Shown here: positions 13,310-21,791 of the stretch, piece after piece
Position numbering within the stretch: the first letter of the stretch is position 1
Layout: every line of letters begins with the position of its first letter
Source: Candidatus Rubrimentiphilum sp.
Lineage (GTDB): Bacteria; Vulcanimicrobiota; Vulcanimicrobiia; Vulcanimicrobiales; Vulcanimicrobiaceae
NCBI GenBank assembly: GCA_035710515.1
Contig: DASTDE010000001.1
Span: 1 to 64,000 of the forward strand
Direction of reading: 5' to 3'
DNA length: 64,000 nt
The notes under the pieces: generated by a model
The model's database searches: none
What the model was told of the DNA's origin: nothing
The model's input: only the letters and a program-made list of their open reading frames with translations
Position numbers and translations under genes: made by a program

Positions 13310-13351
13310 TTATGGGAGAGTACGGGTCTGGTGGCTCGCACGGTATTCAAA
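13310..13351 (+). repeat. Truncated copy of the tRNA-Sec gene (5' half)
   Basis: 42 bp matching 14664-14705 at 40 positions: TTAT of the 5' flank, the 5' acceptor strand GGGAGAGT, the whole D arm and the anticodon stem and loop up to TTCAAA. Similarity stops just 3' of the anticodon. The two differences are C to T in the D stem and C to A in the loop. The long variable arm, T arm and 3' acceptor strand are missing, so it cannot be a functional tRNA. Between this copy and 13572 (about 220 bp) I see no gene. Confidence 0.9.
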
Positions 13352-13571
13352 CGCCTCCACGCGTTTCCTGACCAACTCGCGTAATTCCGGAAAAGCCCGA
13401 TATAATCGCCCAAGCAGCGATTCATTCTCCTAACTAGTCCGCCCAAGAAGGGCTCAATCAGCGCCCGTCCGTGACAAATCCGTGACACGCCAGACCTACA
13501 ATACGCGGCGCCCGAAAGTTCTTACAGAACACGAATCGTCGAGCCAGAGGCAGGACCCCAGGGAAGTGTTA

Positions 13572-13955
13572 ATGCACCATTCCGTTGCAATGCGTCTGCT
13601 CGCCGTACTCGCGATGTCATTTGGGGCGATAACAGCGTGCGGAGCCGCCAGTGAATACATGGCCGGAGATGCACATGCAATTGACCTAGCACGACATGTT
13701 CCCGGTGCAAACCGGCTCGAAAAATATCCGGGAACTTTTGGCTGGCAGGTGGTCATGTACTGCACGCGACTGGGTAAATGCCCCGAGGTCTCAGGCACAG
13801 AAAACCCAAAGTTGTATCCTATACGCGTTATCTGCTACTGCGATCAGGACGCTGCTCGCCCGCGCGGGTGGTTCATTGAGTCTAATCTGCATACAAACTC
13901 CGCACGAGCAATCAGCGGAGACCATAGGTTGCAGAAGCTTTATGACTTGCCATAG
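13572..13955 (+). CDS. Small secreted protein, unrecognised
   Basis: 127 residues from ATG 13572 (AGGG about 10 bases upstream); an internal ATG at 13590 would also leave a full signal peptide, MRLLAVLAMSFGAITACGA, and an upstream in-frame ATG at 13482 adds 30 unconvincing residues. The mature part has several Cys (CTRLGKC, CYCD), suggesting disulfides in an exported protein. It lies inside the tRNA-Sec-bounded segment. No family recognised. Confidence 0.55.
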   Translation: MHHSVAMRLLAVLAMSFGAITACGAASEYMAGDAHAIDLARHVPGANRLEKYPGTFGWQVVMYCTRLGKCPEVSGTENPKLYPIRVICYCDQDAARPRGWFIESNLHTNSARAISGDHRLQKLYDLP

Positions 13956-14027
13956 GAAAGCGCCTCGTTCCGATCGCGAACGCGCAGCAGTCGTACGTCG
14001 GCTTTAACAACAAAAGAACGCAAGACA

Positions 14028-14243
14028 ATGATAATTGGGTATGACCACCTTGTAGAACTTCTGCGCAAATCGGGGTTGCCAAACCAAGACGCTGACCCGG
14101 GTGACGCTCTTTACATCCGATTCAAAAAAATCGACAGAATTGAAGGATCGGACGAATTTACAACCCCCGACGGAGCGATTGTGAAACTGGATCTTGATGG
14201 TGAGGAAGATCTTTGCGGCATCGAGATCGTGCTGACTCGTTGA
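14028..14243 (+). CDS. DUF2283-like small protein
   Basis: 71 residues. Seen: GDALYIRF followed by TTPDGAIVKLDLDGE and CGIEIVLTR, which follows the DUF2283 pattern (D-A-L-Y-I ... G-V-I-V-D-x-D ... G-I-E-I). Such proteins are small, often found beside toxin-antitoxin or mobile genes, and have no settled function. Relatively AT-rich, inside the tRNA-Sec-bounded segment. About 70 bp of featureless sequence precede it. Confidence 0.6.
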   Translation: MIIGYDHLVELLRKSGLPNQDADPGDALYIRFKKIDRIEGSDEFTTPDGAIVKLDLDGEEDLCGIEIVLTR

Positions 14244-14281
14244 TCACAAGTACAACGTTGATTAATCTTCGCACGCGCGAG

Positions 14282-14608
14282 ATGAGTTTCGCGGGCTTAG
14301 CGATTGCCCTTGCCCTTACAGGTACAGCATGTTCCTTCGATTACAGAAATCAGGCCTTTCCCGGCTGTTCAAGGCAAACGGTGTTAGGGGATGTCAGCGC
14401 AAGTGCTCCACGGCACGTAGCAACAATAAGACTGAGCGATGGCCACTTCTATAGAAACCATGATGATATAGTACTGCACAGTGAACGCGAACGTTATCCA
14501 AAGGGCACGCATGTTGTGCTTTGCCGACTGCAGAAACATGGCGAGAGGTATTCTATCGCACGCGACATTATCGGAATCCCATATGAGCATTTCGACAAGA
14601 TTAAATAG
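14282..14608 (+). CDS. Putative exported small protein
   Basis: 108 residues from ATG 14282, beginning with a hydrophobic stretch SFAGLAIALALTGTAC that may be a signal peptide; the GTAC before the first Cys is only a poor lipobox. The mature part has basic and aromatic residues and three Cys in all. An upstream in-frame ATG at 14213 overlaps the previous gene and was not chosen. Last gene before tRNA-Sec. No family recognised. Confidence 0.5.
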   Translation: MSFAGLAIALALTGTACSFDYRNQAFPGCSRQTVLGDVSASAPRHVATIRLSDGHFYRNHDDIVLHSERERYPKGTHVVLCRLQKHGERYSIARDIIGIPYEHFDKIK

Positions 14609-14667
14609 ATTTTCGCGGAACGAACGAGGCCGTTAAATTAGGTGAATCCCGATGTAATTAGGGTTAT

Positions 14668-14761
14668 GGGAGAGTACGGGTCTGGTGGCCCGCACGGTCT
14701 TCAAAACCGCTGAGGCCGGCGCAAGCCGGCTGGTAGGTTCGATTCCTACACTTTCCCGCCA
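14668..14761 (+). tRNA. selC: tRNA-Sec (anticodon TCA), CCA encoded
   Basis: 94 nt with every hallmark of bacterial tRNA-Sec. Seen: 8-bp acceptor stem GGGAGAGT/ACTTTCCC (one G-T pair), an extended 6-bp D stem CGGGTC/GGCCCG with a 4-nt loop, anticodon loop CTTCAAA with TCA at 14701-14703, a long variable arm with the perfect hairpin GCCGGC-GCAA-GCCGGC, T arm GTAGG-TTCGATT-CCTAC, discriminator G at 14758 and encoded CCA at 14759-14761. It is the substrate of SelA and SelB encoded at 0.9-4.1 kb. Its 5' half is duplicated at 13310-13351. Confidence 0.97.
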
Positions 14762-14772
14762 ATGCTCGCTGG

Positions 14773-16464
14773 CTATGTCACCAGAATGTTCGACATCATT
14801 CCGGTGTCTTCGTGCGGCAAGATGTGGCAATGATAGACGGTCTTACCTTTGTATCCTTTAAAGCGCACGCGCATCTTTACCGTGCCCGGCTTTCCATTGT
14901 ATTTGGGCGGGACAAAGATCGTATCGCAGATCAACGGAGGATCGACCGGCTCTCCGTTGATTTCGAAGACCTGAAATGAGTTGTCGTGTAAGTGAAACGG
15001 ATGACCGCACATGTCTGAGGTGGCTTCTATCGTCCATTCTTCGGCGGTGCCGTTTTTCGGAAAAGCCGAGCAGGTCATCTCGTCGTAGAACTGGCCGTTG
15101 ACCGTAAAGGAAAACCCCGTCAGGATTTCGGTCGTGGTTCCCGTATCGAAGGTCACCGTGCGATTGCGCACCACTTGCTGCTTGGTGATGATCGGGTACT
15201 CGCGTTTGGGAACCGGCAAACGTTTGGGAATCTCCATGTGCACCGGCGTACCACTCACGACAAACTTCGCCAAGTCGAGCCTCGGATACGGATTGACCGA
15301 AATGCCATCGTTGGCAGCCGCTGAAAGCGTATAGGTTCCGGGCGTCTGCGGGGCGCGAATCAACAGTTCGTTCCGGTTTCCGCTCGATGCGAGGATCGTC
15401 GAACCGTCGAAGACGTTGGCTGGAGTGACCATCGTCGTGCCCGTTTGTTTCAGGAGCGCGGGCTCCAAGAAGTTGACCCCGTCGACGCCGATCTGATAGA
15501 CGTCCATGCCCGGCAGCACCAACGGCAATACGATGACGTTGGTCCCGGTCAGCATCCGCAGTCGTACGACCTCGCCCGGCCGCATCGTAAATTCGGGAGG
15601 CGGCAATGTCGTATACGTGCCGTCACGTCCTGTGGTGTGATCGAGCCACGTGACGCCCTGCCCGTTGACGGTGAACATCACGTAATCCGTGTGCAGATTG
15701 TAGCCGCCTTTTTTCGGGGACTCATACGGGATCGGTTCCAGCTCAAAATGGTCCGGCTTGTTCGGCGTTGCGTTCACCTGCAGCGACTGGACGACGAGAA
15801 AGATCTCACGTGCCGCCGCGATCTCCGGAACATCGTCGACCGGTCCGCGGATAACGAGTAAGCCGGCCATACCGCCGCTGACCTGCACGTCGGTCGAGCC
15901 GTGAAGGTGTGGATGATACCAGTACAACCCGCTGGGGTGGTCCGCTGGAATCGGAAAGTCATACCGGTACGACTCGCCGGGCCTGATCGCAATCATCTTC
16001 GCGTGCGGGTTGCTCGTTCCGAGCGGTTGGAAGAGATGCGGAATTGTCTGTACGCCGTGAACGTGCAGATTGGTCGAATTGAACTCGTGCGGGTTGTTCA
16101 TCGGATCGATCTTGCTTGCGGAGAGGCGCGTAGCCACCGGATACATATCGTTCGCGTCTTTCGGGAACGGAATCTCGAGCGGCTCCCCCGGCAGATCCGC
16201 CGGTCGATTCGACGGTAACTCGTTGACGATCCTAACGCGCAGCAGATGGCCGGGACGGGTCGTCATTACCGGGCCGTACGTTCTTCCCGCATAGGTGCGC
16301 GTACGCAAAACGCGTTCGCCGAACTGCGTCGTCGCGTAGCGGACGGGAATCGTATACGCGTCAACCTTACCTCCACGCATTGGCGACGACCAGGCGTCGG
16401 AGGGCAGAACCGCGCCCGCCGCCGCGGCGGTGAGCGATCCAAAAACAAAACGACGTCGATTCAT
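14773..16464 (-). CDS. Multicopper oxidase (laccase/CotA/bilirubin-oxidase-like), Tat-exported
   Basis: 563 residues. An N-terminal twin-arginine signal (MNRRRFVFGS then a hydrophobic core) indicates folded export. All copper motifs are present: HVHG (H134, H136), YHPHLHG (H184, H186, H188), GHPFHLHD, and the C-terminal HCHILPHEDTGM with the type-1 Cys546, His551 and axial Met556. Three cupredoxin domains fit the length. Known members oxidise phenols, aromatic amines or metal ions with reduction of O2 to water. It is followed on the same strand region by flavin oxidases and, further on, a tyrosinase. Its stop lies 12 bp from the 3' end of the convergent tRNA-Sec. Confidence 0.93.
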   Translation of the reverse strand: MNRRRFVFGSLTAAAAGAVLPSDAWSSPMRGGKVDAYTIPVRYATTQFGERVLRTRTYAGRTYGPVMTTRPGHLLRVRIVNELPSNRPADLPGEPLEIPFPKDANDMYPVATRLSASKIDPMNNPHEFNSTNLHVHGVQTIPHLFQPLGTSNPHAKMIAIRPGESYRYDFPIPADHPSGLYWYHPHLHGSTDVQVSGGMAGLLVIRGPVDDVPEIAAAREIFLVVQSLQVNATPNKPDHFELEPIPYESPKKGGYNLHTDYVMFTVNGQGVTWLDHTTGRDGTYTTLPPPEFTMRPGEVVRLRMLTGTNVIVLPLVLPGMDVYQIGVDGVNFLEPALLKQTGTTMVTPANVFDGSTILASSGNRNELLIRAPQTPGTYTLSAAANDGISVNPYPRLDLAKFVVSGTPVHMEIPKRLPVPKREYPIITKQQVVRNRTVTFDTGTTTEILTGFSFTVNGQFYDEMTCSAFPKNGTAEEWTIEATSDMCGHPFHLHDNSFQVFEINGEPVDPPLICDTIFVPPKYNGKPGTVKMRVRFKGYKGKTVYHCHILPHEDTGMMSNILVT

Positions 16465-16550
16465 AACGACCTCACGTAACTAGCCCCCAGTTCGCATGCC
16501 ACGGCGCCAAGGTCCTCCGCGAGCCTAGGATGCGCTACCGGAAGTAAGTC

Positions 16551-18110
16551 CTATGGACTATGCCGCCCTAGAGACTGGGCGTACGTAAAGACATTCTCCG
16601 GATCGTACTTGTGTTTGATTTCGTTTAAGCGCGCCACATGCGTGCCGTAGTATTGGTGTTGCCAGTCTGAAAGAAATGGATCCGCATATCCTTGGTATGC
16701 GCTGCCCGAAAGCCATGGCCGAACGGAATCGTACATCGCTTGGGTCCATGCGATATTGGCGCGCGCCACCGATGCCGGGGAGCCGGGCTGCCAGCGCGCT
16801 TGGTACTGCGTTACGATCCGGATGTCGCGGTGCGCGAATGCCATCGCGTCGAGCCCCGGTTGCGAGATCGCGCCGCCCGCCGATTCGAACGCGACCTTGC
16901 CGATCTGCGTCGCGGGATTGAAATTCGCAGGAGTGAGCACGCGATCGGCCTGACGACGTGCAATCGCTTCGATGAGCGCCGAAAATGCTTCCGCCGGCCA
17001 TTTCTTGCGAATGAGATCGGATTTTGCATAGAAGGCCGGTCGCGGAATCCGGCCGCTGCCGGAAACACCCGTATACGCGCATTCTTCCAGGCGAAGCGCC
17101 GCGCACACGGAGCCGCGTTGCGTTGAGATGTACGGCCCGGTTTCAACGGACGTTGCGCTCGGCTTTACGCCGGCTGCACTAAGAAACTCGTGTCCGAGCC
17201 CAAACGCCTCTTTCTCCGATCCTGCTAACGTAAACTCGACGATGATTTTCGCGCCTTCCGACGGCGCACGGTTCACGATTTCAGCCCAAACGTGCCCGCG
17301 TGGCGGCAACGTTTCGATCCAGTCCTGCATCGCGGTCAAAACGCGCAAGCCATGCAACAATGGAAAAGTGTACGCGATCTCCGTGAAGGACATGTCGACT
17401 GGATGAATCCGCGCCGTAAGCTCGACGACCGCGCCAAAATTGCCGCCACCGCCGCCGCGACATGCCCAGAGCAAATCGGAATGTTGCGTGTCGCTCGCAG
17501 TTAAGACGTCACCGGACGCATCGACCACCTTCAACTCCAGGATGTTGTCGCACGTCAACCCGTAAAGTCGCGAAAGGCGCCCGAATCCTCCGGCTTGGCT
17601 CAATCCGGTTACGCCGACCGTGGGACACGTGCCGGCAGGCAGCGACATGCGAGCAGGCCAGAGCCTTTCATACAAGGCCAGATTCGTAAAACCGGCGCCG
17701 AACGTTGCGCGCTGGTTCTTACTATCGATGCGAACCTCGCGCAGCGCGCTCACGTCGACAATCAATCCATGACTGGCGGAGAACCCGGCAAAACTATGGC
17801 CGCCGTTTCGCACCACGAATGGCAGCCCATGTTCTCGCGCGAACGCGATCGTGCGCCCCACATCGTGTGCGTCAGCGACGATAACGATCGCGGCGGGGAG
17901 CACGTTTGCAAACCTTGCGTTCCACGGTTCACTCTTCGAGCGGTATGCAGAATCCGCCGGCGTTATGACGTGGCCGCGAACGGCGGAGCGCAGTTGGGCA
18001 AGAGGCGCTGCCGAACGCGCGCTTAGCGGAAGACCTATTCCACCTAAGGCCGCGGCCGACGCCGCAGCCTCTATGAAGTGCCGGCGGTCGATCTTTTGCA
18101 TCATTTTCAT
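16551..18110 (-). CDS. Exported FAD-linked oxidase of the BBE/VAO family
   Basis: About 519 residues from ATG 18110 (ATGs at 18104 and 18101 are also possible). A Tat-like leader (KIDRRHFIEAAASAAALGG) precedes a PCMH-type FAD domain. Seen: RNGGHSFAG, whose His is the usual covalent FAD site, GLSQAGGFGRLSRLYGLTCDN, and a C-terminal berberine-bridge-enzyme segment ending HKYDPENVFTYAQSL. Members oxidise sugars, alcohols or alkaloid-like substrates with O2, releasing H2O2. The gene is divergent from the amine oxidase, sharing a 99-bp region that holds an inverted repeat. The 86 bp between it and the multicopper oxidase start show only a short AGTCC-TAT-GGACT palindrome near its stop. Confidence 0.88.
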   Translation of the reverse strand: MKMMQKIDRRHFIEAAASAAALGGIGLPLSARSAAPLAQLRSAVRGHVITPADSAYRSKSEPWNARFANVLPAAIVIVADAHDVGRTIAFAREHGLPFVVRNGGHSFAGFSASHGLIVDVSALREVRIDSKNQRATFGAGFTNLALYERLWPARMSLPAGTCPTVGVTGLSQAGGFGRLSRLYGLTCDNILELKVVDASGDVLTASDTQHSDLLWACRGGGGGNFGAVVELTARIHPVDMSFTEIAYTFPLLHGLRVLTAMQDWIETLPPRGHVWAEIVNRAPSEGAKIIVEFTLAGSEKEAFGLGHEFLSAAGVKPSATSVETGPYISTQRGSVCAALRLEECAYTGVSGSGRIPRPAFYAKSDLIRKKWPAEAFSALIEAIARRQADRVLTPANFNPATQIGKVAFESAGGAISQPGLDAMAFAHRDIRIVTQYQARWQPGSPASVARANIAWTQAMYDSVRPWLSGSAYQGYADPFLSDWQHQYYGTHVARLNEIKHKYDPENVFTYAQSLGRHSP

Positions 18111-18148
18111 GTTCGACGTGAAGTTCGGGTCCCTCGCGCACGAGCGCC

Positions 18149-18174
18149 AGGCGAGCAGGCTTTCGGTCGCCTGC
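18149..18174. promoter_or_regulatory. Nested inverted repeat in the divergent BBE oxidase/amine oxidase promoter
   Basis: GCAGGC (18155-18160) and GCCTGC (18169-18174) form an inverted repeat, overlapped by a second pair AGGCGA (18149-18154) and TCGCCT (18167-18172). The pairs are mutually exclusive or nested around the same TTTCGG. The position midway between two divergent starts fits an operator controlling both oxidases. No regulator gene is adjacent. Confidence 0.4.
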
Positions 18175-18209
18175 TGTGAACCCGACCAAAGAAGAGGGGC
18201 GTTTTTGCC

Positions 18210-19709
18210 ATGGCAGTTCAAAAGCTTGAGGCGGATTTTTGCGTCGTCGGGGCGGGATATGCGGGCTTAACGGCTGCGTACCGGCTGCAACAGCAAAAGC
18301 ATTCTGTGGTTTTACTCGAGGCTGCCCCGCGCTTTGGCGGCCGCGTCTGGTCCGAGCATCTCTCCGACGGAACGCACTTCGACATCGGCGGCGCGTGGGT
18401 AGGCAATGAAAAAGTGCAACCGGATATACGGCGCCTCATGAAAGAGCTGGATGTACTGCCCTACCGGCAGTTCACGGGAGGCGAGCACGGCAAAACCGTT
18501 TTCGTAGATGCAAAGGGTAAAGTTTCGTTCTACGAGCCGCTCAACAAAGACAACATACTCGGGCTTGCCGGCGTGCCGAACATCGGGGAGCTGGCGCAAG
18601 CCGAACTTGGCACTACGGTGTTTGCGCTCAACGATATGGCCGCGGCGGTTCACCTCGAAAGCCCCTGGGACGTCGTTGAACTTCCAGACACGCTGACGTT
18701 CAACCCAAAAACGTCGCGCGAAGCCGATACGATGTCGGTGGAAACATGGCTCAGCCTCAACATGTCGACGCCCGAAGCCCGCACGTTGCTAACAAACGCC
18801 TTTGTAGGAATCCTTGGTGTAAGCACGGCGTCGGCGTCGCTGCTTCATTTGCTTTGGATGCTCAGGACATTCGACGGCAGCTTTATGAATACGATCGGTT
18901 CGGGAGAGGGCGAAGCAGAAGAATTCCGAGTGAATAACGGCGCGCAAGAGATGGCCAAACGCATGGCGGCCAAGCTCGGTGATGCGTTGCATTTGAACTG
19001 TCCGGTGCGCCAGATCACCCAGGATGCGAACGGCGTGACCGTGAGTTCAGAGATGATTTCAGTCCGCGCCAAGCGCGCGATCGTGGCGACCGGGACGGCG
19101 ATGGCGAGTTTCATCCGTTTCGACCCGGTGCTGCCGATACCGCGCGCCCAGCTGCAGCAGCGTATGCCGCAGGGCGAATGTTGGAAGATCTGGCTCTGTT
19201 ACGATACGGCGTTTTGGCGAAGCAAAGGTTTCAACGGAGAGTCCGTTTCGATTGCCCCCGGCGACGTGGTCGTGAATGCTCGCGACGCGGGCGTGGAAAA
19301 AGATTCGCCGGGTCTTATGAACGCGTTTCTCGCCGGAGATGGCGCGCGCCAATTCGATAAAATGAGCCGCGCGGATCGAAAAAAGGAAGTCCTCAAAGAG
19401 CTCGTCCACCGGTTCGGCGAGGAGGCCGGTCGCCTTTCGACTCGGGTCACGTTTCCGGCAGTACTGCCGCAGAACCCGGAGCCCGATGCGTATTTCGAAT
19501 GGAATTGGGCGATGGACGAATTTACGCGCGGCGATTTCGCCGCCGTGCCCGGCCCCGGCGTTTACACGACGTTAGGCAACGGACCGGCGATCCGCGAGCC
19601 CTTTCAATTCGTGCACTGGGCCGGCGTAGACACGTCCACCTATCCCTACGCTTCGTTCAGCGGAGCCGTGCAATCGGGCGAGCGCGCCGCAAAGGAGGTC
19701 ACGAGCTAA
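18210..19709 (+). CDS. Flavin-containing amine oxidase
   Basis: 499 residues. Seen: N-terminal dinucleotide motif VVGAGYAGLTAAYRL with the acidic VVLLEA, then RFGGRVWSE, the FDIGGAWVG block of monoamine/polyamine oxidases, and a C-terminal FAD-binding segment HWAGVDTSTYPYASFSGAV, where a Tyr-rich region replaces the covalent Cys of MAO; FAD is therefore probably non-covalent. No signal peptide, so cytoplasmic. Typical reaction: oxidative deamination of amines to aldehydes with H2O2. Weak GAGG-type RBS. The M28B gene starts 19 bp downstream, suggesting an operon. Confidence 0.87.
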   Translation: MAVQKLEADFCVVGAGYAGLTAAYRLQQQKHSVVLLEAAPRFGGRVWSEHLSDGTHFDIGGAWVGNEKVQPDIRRLMKELDVLPYRQFTGGEHGKTVFVDAKGKVSFYEPLNKDNILGLAGVPNIGELAQAELGTTVFALNDMAAAVHLESPWDVVELPDTLTFNPKTSREADTMSVETWLSLNMSTPEARTLLTNAFVGILGVSTASASLLHLLWMLRTFDGSFMNTIGSGEGEAEEFRVNNGAQEMAKRMAAKLGDALHLNCPVRQITQDANGVTVSSEMISVRAKRAIVATGTAMASFIRFDPVLPIPRAQLQQRMPQGECWKIWLCYDTAFWRSKGFNGESVSIAPGDVVVNARDAGVEKDSPGLMNAFLAGDGARQFDKMSRADRKKEVLKELVHRFGEEAGRLSTRVTFPAVLPQNPEPDAYFEWNWAMDEFTRGDFAAVPGPGVYTTLGNGPAIREPFQFVHWAGVDTSTYPYASFSGAVQSGERAAKEVTS

Positions 19710-19727
19710 CCGGCCTAAGAGTTCACG

Positions 19728-21791
19728 ATGCGCAATTTTCGTATGGTGACTCTGATACTTCCGTTGGCATTGATAGCTCCGCTCGCGACGCCGGCTGCTT
19801 CGCCCGGAATCGTCGGCTGGGCGCAAGGTCCGGCGGTTTCGCAGGAGCTCCAATACGAGCGCACGATGATGCGTGTGCCCAGCGCCGCCAACGCGCGCGC
19901 GATCGAGTTGCACATTTCGTCGCTGCCCCATCGTGCCGGAACGGCGGCGGACCTGGCGACAGCGCAATTCGTGCAGCAGAGGCTCGCTCGGGACGGATTT
20001 ACGACGCGGGTCGTCCGGTACAGCGTGTGGTTCACGAGCCCCACCGAACAATCGCTGGCGCTGGTTTCACCGCGCGCGCATGCGTTTGATCTGCTCGAAG
20101 GCACAGCGCCGCACACGAAGTGGGAGCGCATGGCCGGCCCGCCATTTATGGAAAATTCCGGCGACGGCGATGTAACCGGACCGGTCTATTACGTCAACAC
20201 CGCCTCCAAAGACGACTTGGAACTGCTCGACGCGATGCACGTGAATCTGCGCGGCGCCGTCGTTATCATTCGGATGTCGGCGCCGCCGGCCGCGGGCCCC
20301 CCGCGCCCATTCGATCCAAAGTTCAATCAATATGACCAGCTGGCGGCGCGCGGCGTCAAAGCGATACTCGAATTCATGGACCCCGGCACGACCGGATACG
20401 GCGGCGGCCAGACCTGGCCGAACGGCAATTACAAAAATACGAACATGGCCGAACGGATAAGCGGACCGTCGCCTCTCAAAGGCCTGTCCACCGGCGCGCC
20501 GCCCGGTGATCCAACACTCCCGGGGCAAGCGCCGCTGCCCGGCATTCCGCACATTCCTTATGCGCAATTGCCGCACTCGACGATGCCCGAGATGAGCATC
20601 ACGCAGAGCACTGCACGCGCGCTGCTTTCCGGCATGAACGGCGCAGTTGTTCCGCAAGACTGGCACCCCATGTATGAATTCGTGCAGCACGTCGGCGGTA
20701 ATCAGCGCGTGCACGTGCACGTGAAGATGACGCGCCATCTCACAACGATTTACAACGTGTTCGGCGATCTGAAGGGCAGCTCGATGCCTAATTCGATCGT
20801 TATGATTGGCAGCCACCGCGACGCCATGGCGTTCGGAGTAATCGATCCCGGCAGCGGCACGACGGTGATGATGCAAGATGCCGACGCGCTGCATGCGCTC
20901 GTGCTGCAAGGCTATCGTCCCCAGCGCACCATCGAGATCGCGTCGTGGGACGGACACGAGCTCGGCCTGTGGGGATCGGCGTCCTACATCTACCAGACCG
21001 GTCCCGTGCTTCGCGCGAACCTGTTTCAATATATCAACACCGACCAGCTCACTACGGGAAAACCGTTCGTCATCAGCTCGACGGTCGGTCTGTTTGCGTT
21101 CCTCCAGCAGATTGCGGACGGCATCCCGGGACCCGACGGCCGGATGCTCAGCGCGCACAGCGCGACCGAACGCCGTCCGCTCCTCAATCCGATGACCGGC
21201 GGATCCGATCATCAGAACTTCGCCTATATCTTGGGCATCCCGAGCTCGTCCAACGGCTTCTATGGATCGTTCGGCGCGCACCATACTGCCGAAGACAACC
21301 TCGACGGTATACGCACCTACGATCCGGGACTGAAGGAAGCCGTCGCGTGCGCGCAGCTCACCGGCATTCAAGCGATGCGCGCGGCCGGGGCAACGGTCGA
21401 TCCGCTACGGATTTCGGAGATGCCGGCGCAGTTCACGAAAGACATGGCGTCGTTGCCGGGTATCGCGACGAATAAAATCAACGTGCAAATGCTCGCGCAA
21501 GCGCTTGCGAATTTTTCAGCTGCGGCGAAGTCGACCGACGATGCGATGGCGCGGGCCGAAGCCGCCGGCGACGTTGCAACGATGCAGCAGCTCGGCGCAA
21601 AGGAGCAATCGGTTCGCGACGCGTTCTACATCCCGTCGGGGCTGTCGTTCAACAGGTACTATCACACGATTGACCGCGTGCTCGCCCCCTATCCGGAGGT
21701 GACGTACGCAGGCGATGATCCGAAAGCCCAACAGGCCGCGGTCGATCGCTTTACCGCGGCCGTCGAGGCTGCAACGAACGCGCTGAAGTAA
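19728..21791 (+). CDS. Exported M28B (glutamate carboxypeptidase II-like) protein with altered catalytic base
   Basis: 687 residues with a signal peptide (hydrophobic 7-23), a PA domain and a Zn-peptidase domain. Metal ligands align with human GCPII: HRDAM (H363), IDPGSG (D373), E411, INTDQ (D439) and HHTAED (H519). At the catalytic dyad GCPII has DAEEFG; here it is DGHELG, so the general-base Glu is His410 while the zinc-ligand Glu411 is kept. The C-terminal dimerisation helix region (about 560-687) is complete. Either an inactive, receptor-like relative or an enzyme with unusual chemistry. Downstream of the amine oxidase by 19 bp. Confidence 0.85.
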   Translation: MRNFRMVTLILPLALIAPLATPAASPGIVGWAQGPAVSQELQYERTMMRVPSAANARAIELHISSLPHRAGTAADLATAQFVQQRLARDGFTTRVVRYSVWFTSPTEQSLALVSPRAHAFDLLEGTAPHTKWERMAGPPFMENSGDGDVTGPVYYVNTASKDDLELLDAMHVNLRGAVVIIRMSAPPAAGPPRPFDPKFNQYDQLAARGVKAILEFMDPGTTGYGGGQTWPNGNYKNTNMAERISGPSPLKGLSTGAPPGDPTLPGQAPLPGIPHIPYAQLPHSTMPEMSITQSTARALLSGMNGAVVPQDWHPMYEFVQHVGGNQRVHVHVKMTRHLTTIYNVFGDLKGSSMPNSIVMIGSHRDAMAFGVIDPGSGTTVMMQDADALHALVLQGYRPQRTIEIASWDGHELGLWGSASYIYQTGPVLRANLFQYINTDQLTTGKPFVISSTVGLFAFLQQIADGIPGPDGRMLSAHSATERRPLLNPMTGGSDHQNFAYILGIPSSSNGFYGSFGAHHTAEDNLDGIRTYDPGLKEAVACAQLTGIQAMRAAGATVDPLRISEMPAQFTKDMASLPGIATNKINVQMLAQALANFSAAAKSTDDAMARAEAAGDVATMQQLGAKEQSVRDAFYIPSGLSFNRYYHTIDRVLAPYPEVTYAGDDPKAQQAAVDRFTAAVEAATNALK

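Follow-up and report, generated by a model that had tools for sequence, protein, structure and literature searches.

The window analysed here, a 64-kb (64,000-nucleotide) stretch from Candidatus Rubrimentiphilum sp., a member of Candidatus Eremiobacterota, contains one tRNA-Sec gene, selC, on the forward strand at 14668-14761 (ARAGORN and Rfam; alternative end 14757; RF01852, 72.5 bits), and this was also the only tRNA-Sec gene above the family cut-off in the whole genome. Upstream of it, in the same orientation, lies a partial second copy: the first 38 nt of selC match positions 13314-13351, 1354 bp away, at 36 of 38 bases, and together with four flanking bases the copy (13310-13351, forward strand; hereafter the stub) is identical to 14664-14705 at 40 of 42. 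The stub runs from the mature tRNA 5' end through the final base of the anticodon loop (TTCAAA), and since only four bases of flank (TTAT) are shared, the repeat begins essentially at the mature 5' end. When the window was scanned with the selC 5' half, 13314-13351 was the sole other match at up to 3 mismatches, while 100 shuffled sequences gave 0 matches (chance expectation 0). No 3' half of selC is present beside the stub. The duplication of half of tRNA-Sec described in the earlier note, with its end just after the anticodon loop, is therefore real. The end of the stub also overlaps an inverted repeat, AAACGC-N6-GCGTTT (13349-13366).

Between the stub and selC, G+C content falls to 48-56%, compared with ~60% in the surroundings, and the segment holds three small forward-strand ORFs, so that the ORF list and the drop in G+C agree with the earlier description of three small AT-rich genes between the repeats. 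The first ORF (13572-13955) is predicted to encode a small secreted or lipoprotein-like protein; an alternative, longer GTG start at 13482 would run over a direct repeat described below. Pfam and PADLOC searches returned no match for it and no homologue was found in the 98 other family genomes, and hence the cargo points to no donor. The second (14028-14243) encodes a DUF2283 protein (Pfam PF10049, 24.9 bits, cut-off 23), and the third (14213-14608, ATG at 14282) a small lipoprotein-like protein with no Pfam match and no homologue at other selC loci. No integrase gene was found in the window, and the four tyrosine-recombinase matches in this genome all lie away from the selC locus. One of these, a phage-type integrase at C4:548866 (L198), adjoins tRNA-Leu, arranged as in conventional 3'-side insertions, and was rejected as the partner of the window element. 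To the right of selC, ~7 kb (14773-21791; a multicopper oxidase, an FAD oxidase and two more genes) have no counterpart at most of the other selC loci in the family, which makes the right flank variable too.

We found stubs of the selC 5' half in 12 of the 99 family genomes searched, distributed over six genera: the window genome (G000), G001, G002 (partial), G003, G006, G011 (two stubs), G020, G022, G031, G047, G091 and G097. Besides the window, stub and selC are linked at distances of 16.27 kb (G001), 1.69 kb (G003), 1.25 kb (G002, the partial stub), 4.07 kb (G047) and 3.15 kb (G091), and every linked stub lies upstream of selC on the same strand; the stubs of G006, G011 (both), G020, G022, G031 and G097 are on contigs without linkage to selC. 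The break base is identical in all stubs, following loop ends of the type T(T/C)CAAA or C(T/C)TCAAA, with differing DNA beyond, and in G001 and G003 the stub is perfect up to this base and then ends. The stubs of G000, G003 and G006 share a putative element terminus, with ~50 bp conserved past the stub (13352-13400, forward strand, in the window), and an exact scan of the genome contigs for this terminus matched only the G003 and G006 records. The inverted repeat is kept in both, with one loop base changed. An antisense control gave no matches, 3'-half stubs were absent from the stretches searched, where downstream coverage was often short, and viral contigs contained no match to the stub junction. 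Across 149 genomes of the phylum, a stricter pattern, which diverged tRNA sequences would escape, detected stubs nowhere outside the family. A half-tRNA in G066 ends at a contig edge and was not counted. Separately, G017 carries two full tRNA-Sec genes (C64:51056 and C171:16642), both near contig ends, with identical sequence immediately upstream and different sequence downstream, possibly reflecting a 3'-side island or a mixture of strains.

At ~80-130 bp past the break, 10 of 11 stubs show a direct repeat whose units are spaced 11 bp apart. In the window this repeat, TCCGTGACAAATCCGTGACA, lies at 13468-13487 on the forward strand and matches at 9/9 positions at period 11; we predict that it represents an integrase arm-type site on the stub-side (P') arm. 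With at least 7 of 9 matching positions counted as a repeat, 13% of random windows qualify, and the binomial P for the stubs is 1.5e-8, an optimistic value given that G000, G003 and G006 share a terminus and are not fully independent. The stub-side motif recurs less than 200 bp upstream of selC in G001 (TGTGACC), G047 (TGTGACCAA) and G002 (GTTAGAT), at 16/18, compared with at most 15/18 for random pairs in 60 trials; the G002 pair, which lies at the edge of a contig, is less secure. These paired repeats have the layout of putative arm-type integrase sites flanking a core. Candidate arm sites thus lie on both sides of the crossover in G001, G002 and G047 and on the stub side alone in the window, there being no comparable repeat before selC in either the window or G003. 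For an island of the G001 kind, the predicted attP is the selC 5' half joined to TTCCCTGCAGCG.

The neighbouring genes indicate which side of the interval is original. The gene for the TypA/BipA GTPase, typA, is found at 36 stub-free loci on the opposite strand, upstream of selC; in G000, G003, G006, G011, G020 and G031 it lies upstream of the stub, and in G001 and G003 the stub is adjoined by the same serine-hydrolase gene. With these neighbours on its side, the stub marks the chromosomal left and the interval is the insert. The D-stem alleles of the two G011 stubs differ from those of the present selC (GGGTC/GGCTC and GGATC/GGTTC), which is consistent with a half supplied by the element. The comparison with an uninterrupted locus suggested in the earlier note was borne out in part: selC occurs without a stub in G004, G005 and others, and typA-selC synteny is conserved, but both flanks are too diverged for a base-exact join of the empty site.

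The intervals in relatives include one with an integrase. In G001, the 16.3 kb between stub and selC encode a 407-residue tyrosine integrase (Pfam Phage_integrase PF00589, 2.7e-26), whose own gene lies 12.6 kb from selC; a type I restriction-modification system and a helix-turn-helix protein are encoded there as well. In G011, the end of an integrase gene lies ~100 bp upstream of selC. The 4.07-kb interval of G047 contains no integrase; one of its products matches PDC-S05, a candidate phage-defence family. The 1.69-kb interval of G003 contains two genes and a third that may be toxin-like, with a sub-threshold Gp49-like match. Cargo genes differ among all islands. In the interval of G002 (L035), an 11-bp unit, CTGTTAGATGT, is repeated head to tail ~ten times, ending ~75 bp before selC, and two stretches resemble, by eye, the 3' portion of a different tRNA gene in reversed orientation. 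An integrase near a contig end in G097 was rejected as a 5'-type selC integrase, since by eye that contig end resembles the 3' part of another tRNA.

In addition, six family genomes (G003, G012, G026, G065, G067 and G075) carry an integrase gene directly 3' of selC. All six genes (L039:10096-10992 in G003; L132, L137, L153, L158 and L169) point toward selC, as in conventional 3'-side islands, and G003 carries traces of both 5'- and 3'-side selC islands. In an integrase tree with weak deep branches, the five 3'-side integrases of sufficient length separated from the two 5'-linked ones, and the latter (G001 and G011) were not recovered as a separate, well supported clade in the full set of integrases.

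We conclude that the segment 13352-14705 is very probably the decayed remnant of an integrative element, or genomic island, for which the selC 5' half served as attB. A tyrosine integrase would target this half and exchange strands within the anticodon loop, across a 7-bp overlap of the length typical of such tyrosine integrases (PMC8371274). From the point at which the stubs diverge and from known anticodon-loop integrases (PMC8371274, PMC4383910), we infer that the overlap corresponds to 13345-13351 of the stub (forward strand, ATTCAAA) and to 14699-14705 of selC (CTTCAAA). The element would carry a functional selC 5' half of its own within its attachment site. On integration, the resident 5' half would be moved to the opposite end of the insert and persist as the attL-side stub, and the copy brought by the element would join the resident 3' half, restoring a working selC. 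In the rebuilt gene, 14668-14705 would then derive from the element and 14706-14761 from the original 3' half, and the region upstream of selC, so probably its promoter, would now be element DNA from which selC is transcribed. Loss of the integrase gene and of the arm sites next to selC would have come later, with the integrase end deleted in the window, and the remnant is probably immobile.

The earlier note had proposed recombination near the anticodon loop that left a stub and a rebuilt gene, and this proposal is upheld by what can be read from the DNA of the relatives: the same exact break, its recurrence, the integrase-bearing island of G001 and the paired, putatively arm-type repeats. 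The missing integrase, which had seemed odd, is accounted for by decay, in that the stub-side repeat was kept while the selC-side repeat and the integrase are gone, and we read the segment as a decayed remnant on these grounds. As in 5'-fragment tDNA islands, the fragment lies on the correct side and strand and ends at the anticodon-loop crossover sublocation; with no integrase inside, the segment is filed as a remnant rather than an intact island of this class.

We also considered whether the segment is instead a non-autonomous mini-element or cassette of ~1.2-1.7 kb, lacking an integrase from the outset and mobilized in trans by the integrases of co-resident islands. Short integrase-less islands in G000, G003 and G002 would fit such a cassette, as would the arm-like repeats at both ends of the G002 interval and of the integrase-free 4.07 kb of G047. 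Yet the selC-side arm is missing in G000 and G003, the G002 interval is at a contig edge and holds the apparent tRNA fragments mentioned above, and the same short element was not found at two sites, leaving this explanation improbable. More improbable again, and strongly disfavoured, is a local duplication or recombination error in which the first part of selC was copied and no mobile element took part. Such an error could leave a window without an integrase, a segment of just 1.35 kb and three small genes lacking mobility functions, whereas it does not predict independent stubs in six genera with the same break base and different DNA beyond, an integrase-bearing island in the same interval of G001, or arm-type repeats past the stubs. 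It is scarcely credible that the stub represents a second tRNA-Sec gene that decayed independently of integration: the two positions at which it differs from selC would suit decay, but no 3' half lies near the stub, the rest of the genome falls below the tRNA-Sec cut-off, and the stubs of G001 and G003 are perfect until they stop at the break.

Beyond the remnant of a 5'-half element that we favour for the window, a broader scenario is conceivable, which we put forward as speculative and rather unlikely to hold. In this scenario selC would be a two-sided hotspot in the family, entered by unrelated integrases through its 5' half and its 3' end, and short, integrase-less, two-armed elements would be traded in trans like cassettes, each re-supplying half of tRNA-Sec and a promoter.

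Islands in the 5' half of tRNA genes are rare (~4% of Islander islands) and place the tRNA under the control of the element. The present family has many of them at a single-copy tRNA gene, where the attachment-site anatomy is readable at both ends, and its islands form a natural test set for how integrases of the 5' half preserve the function of their target tRNA. Small remnants such as this one are overlooked by island finders that require an integrase.

Finally, we compared the locus with known systems. The enterobacterial selC islands, including LEE and PAI I of E. coli, use the 3' end of selC, with the integrase downstream of the gene. They share with the present islands the use of selC as a hotspot, as the earlier note had stated together with the usual 3' end, and they differ in the end that is used, 5' use being recurrent here; the 3'-side layout is also present in the six family genomes described above. 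Islands with 5' fragments are a known minority, and the new part is the selC 5' half as a recurrent hotspot in Candidatus Eremiobacterota, of which we found no description in a literature search covering a minority of subscription papers. Among the 3919 islands in Islander, 159 have a 5' tDNA fragment (PMC4383910), and like the present locus they combine a rebuilt tRNA gene with a displaced 5' fragment upstream, in the same orientation, and an anticodon crossover (the 'A' class). They differ in that here selC is the target and is hit repeatedly in one family, and the window remnant would be rejected by Islander, whose criteria include an integrase and a minimum length of 2 kb. For the archaeal integrases of the pTN3 type (PMC8371274), attB likewise falls within the 5' half of a tRNA gene, and there too the rebuilt tRNA gene relies on upstream element DNA; in contrast to the bacterial G001 integrase, encoded 12.6 kb from selC by a gene of its own, and to the integrase-free window, the archaeal system expresses the rebuilt tRNA from the integrase promoter.
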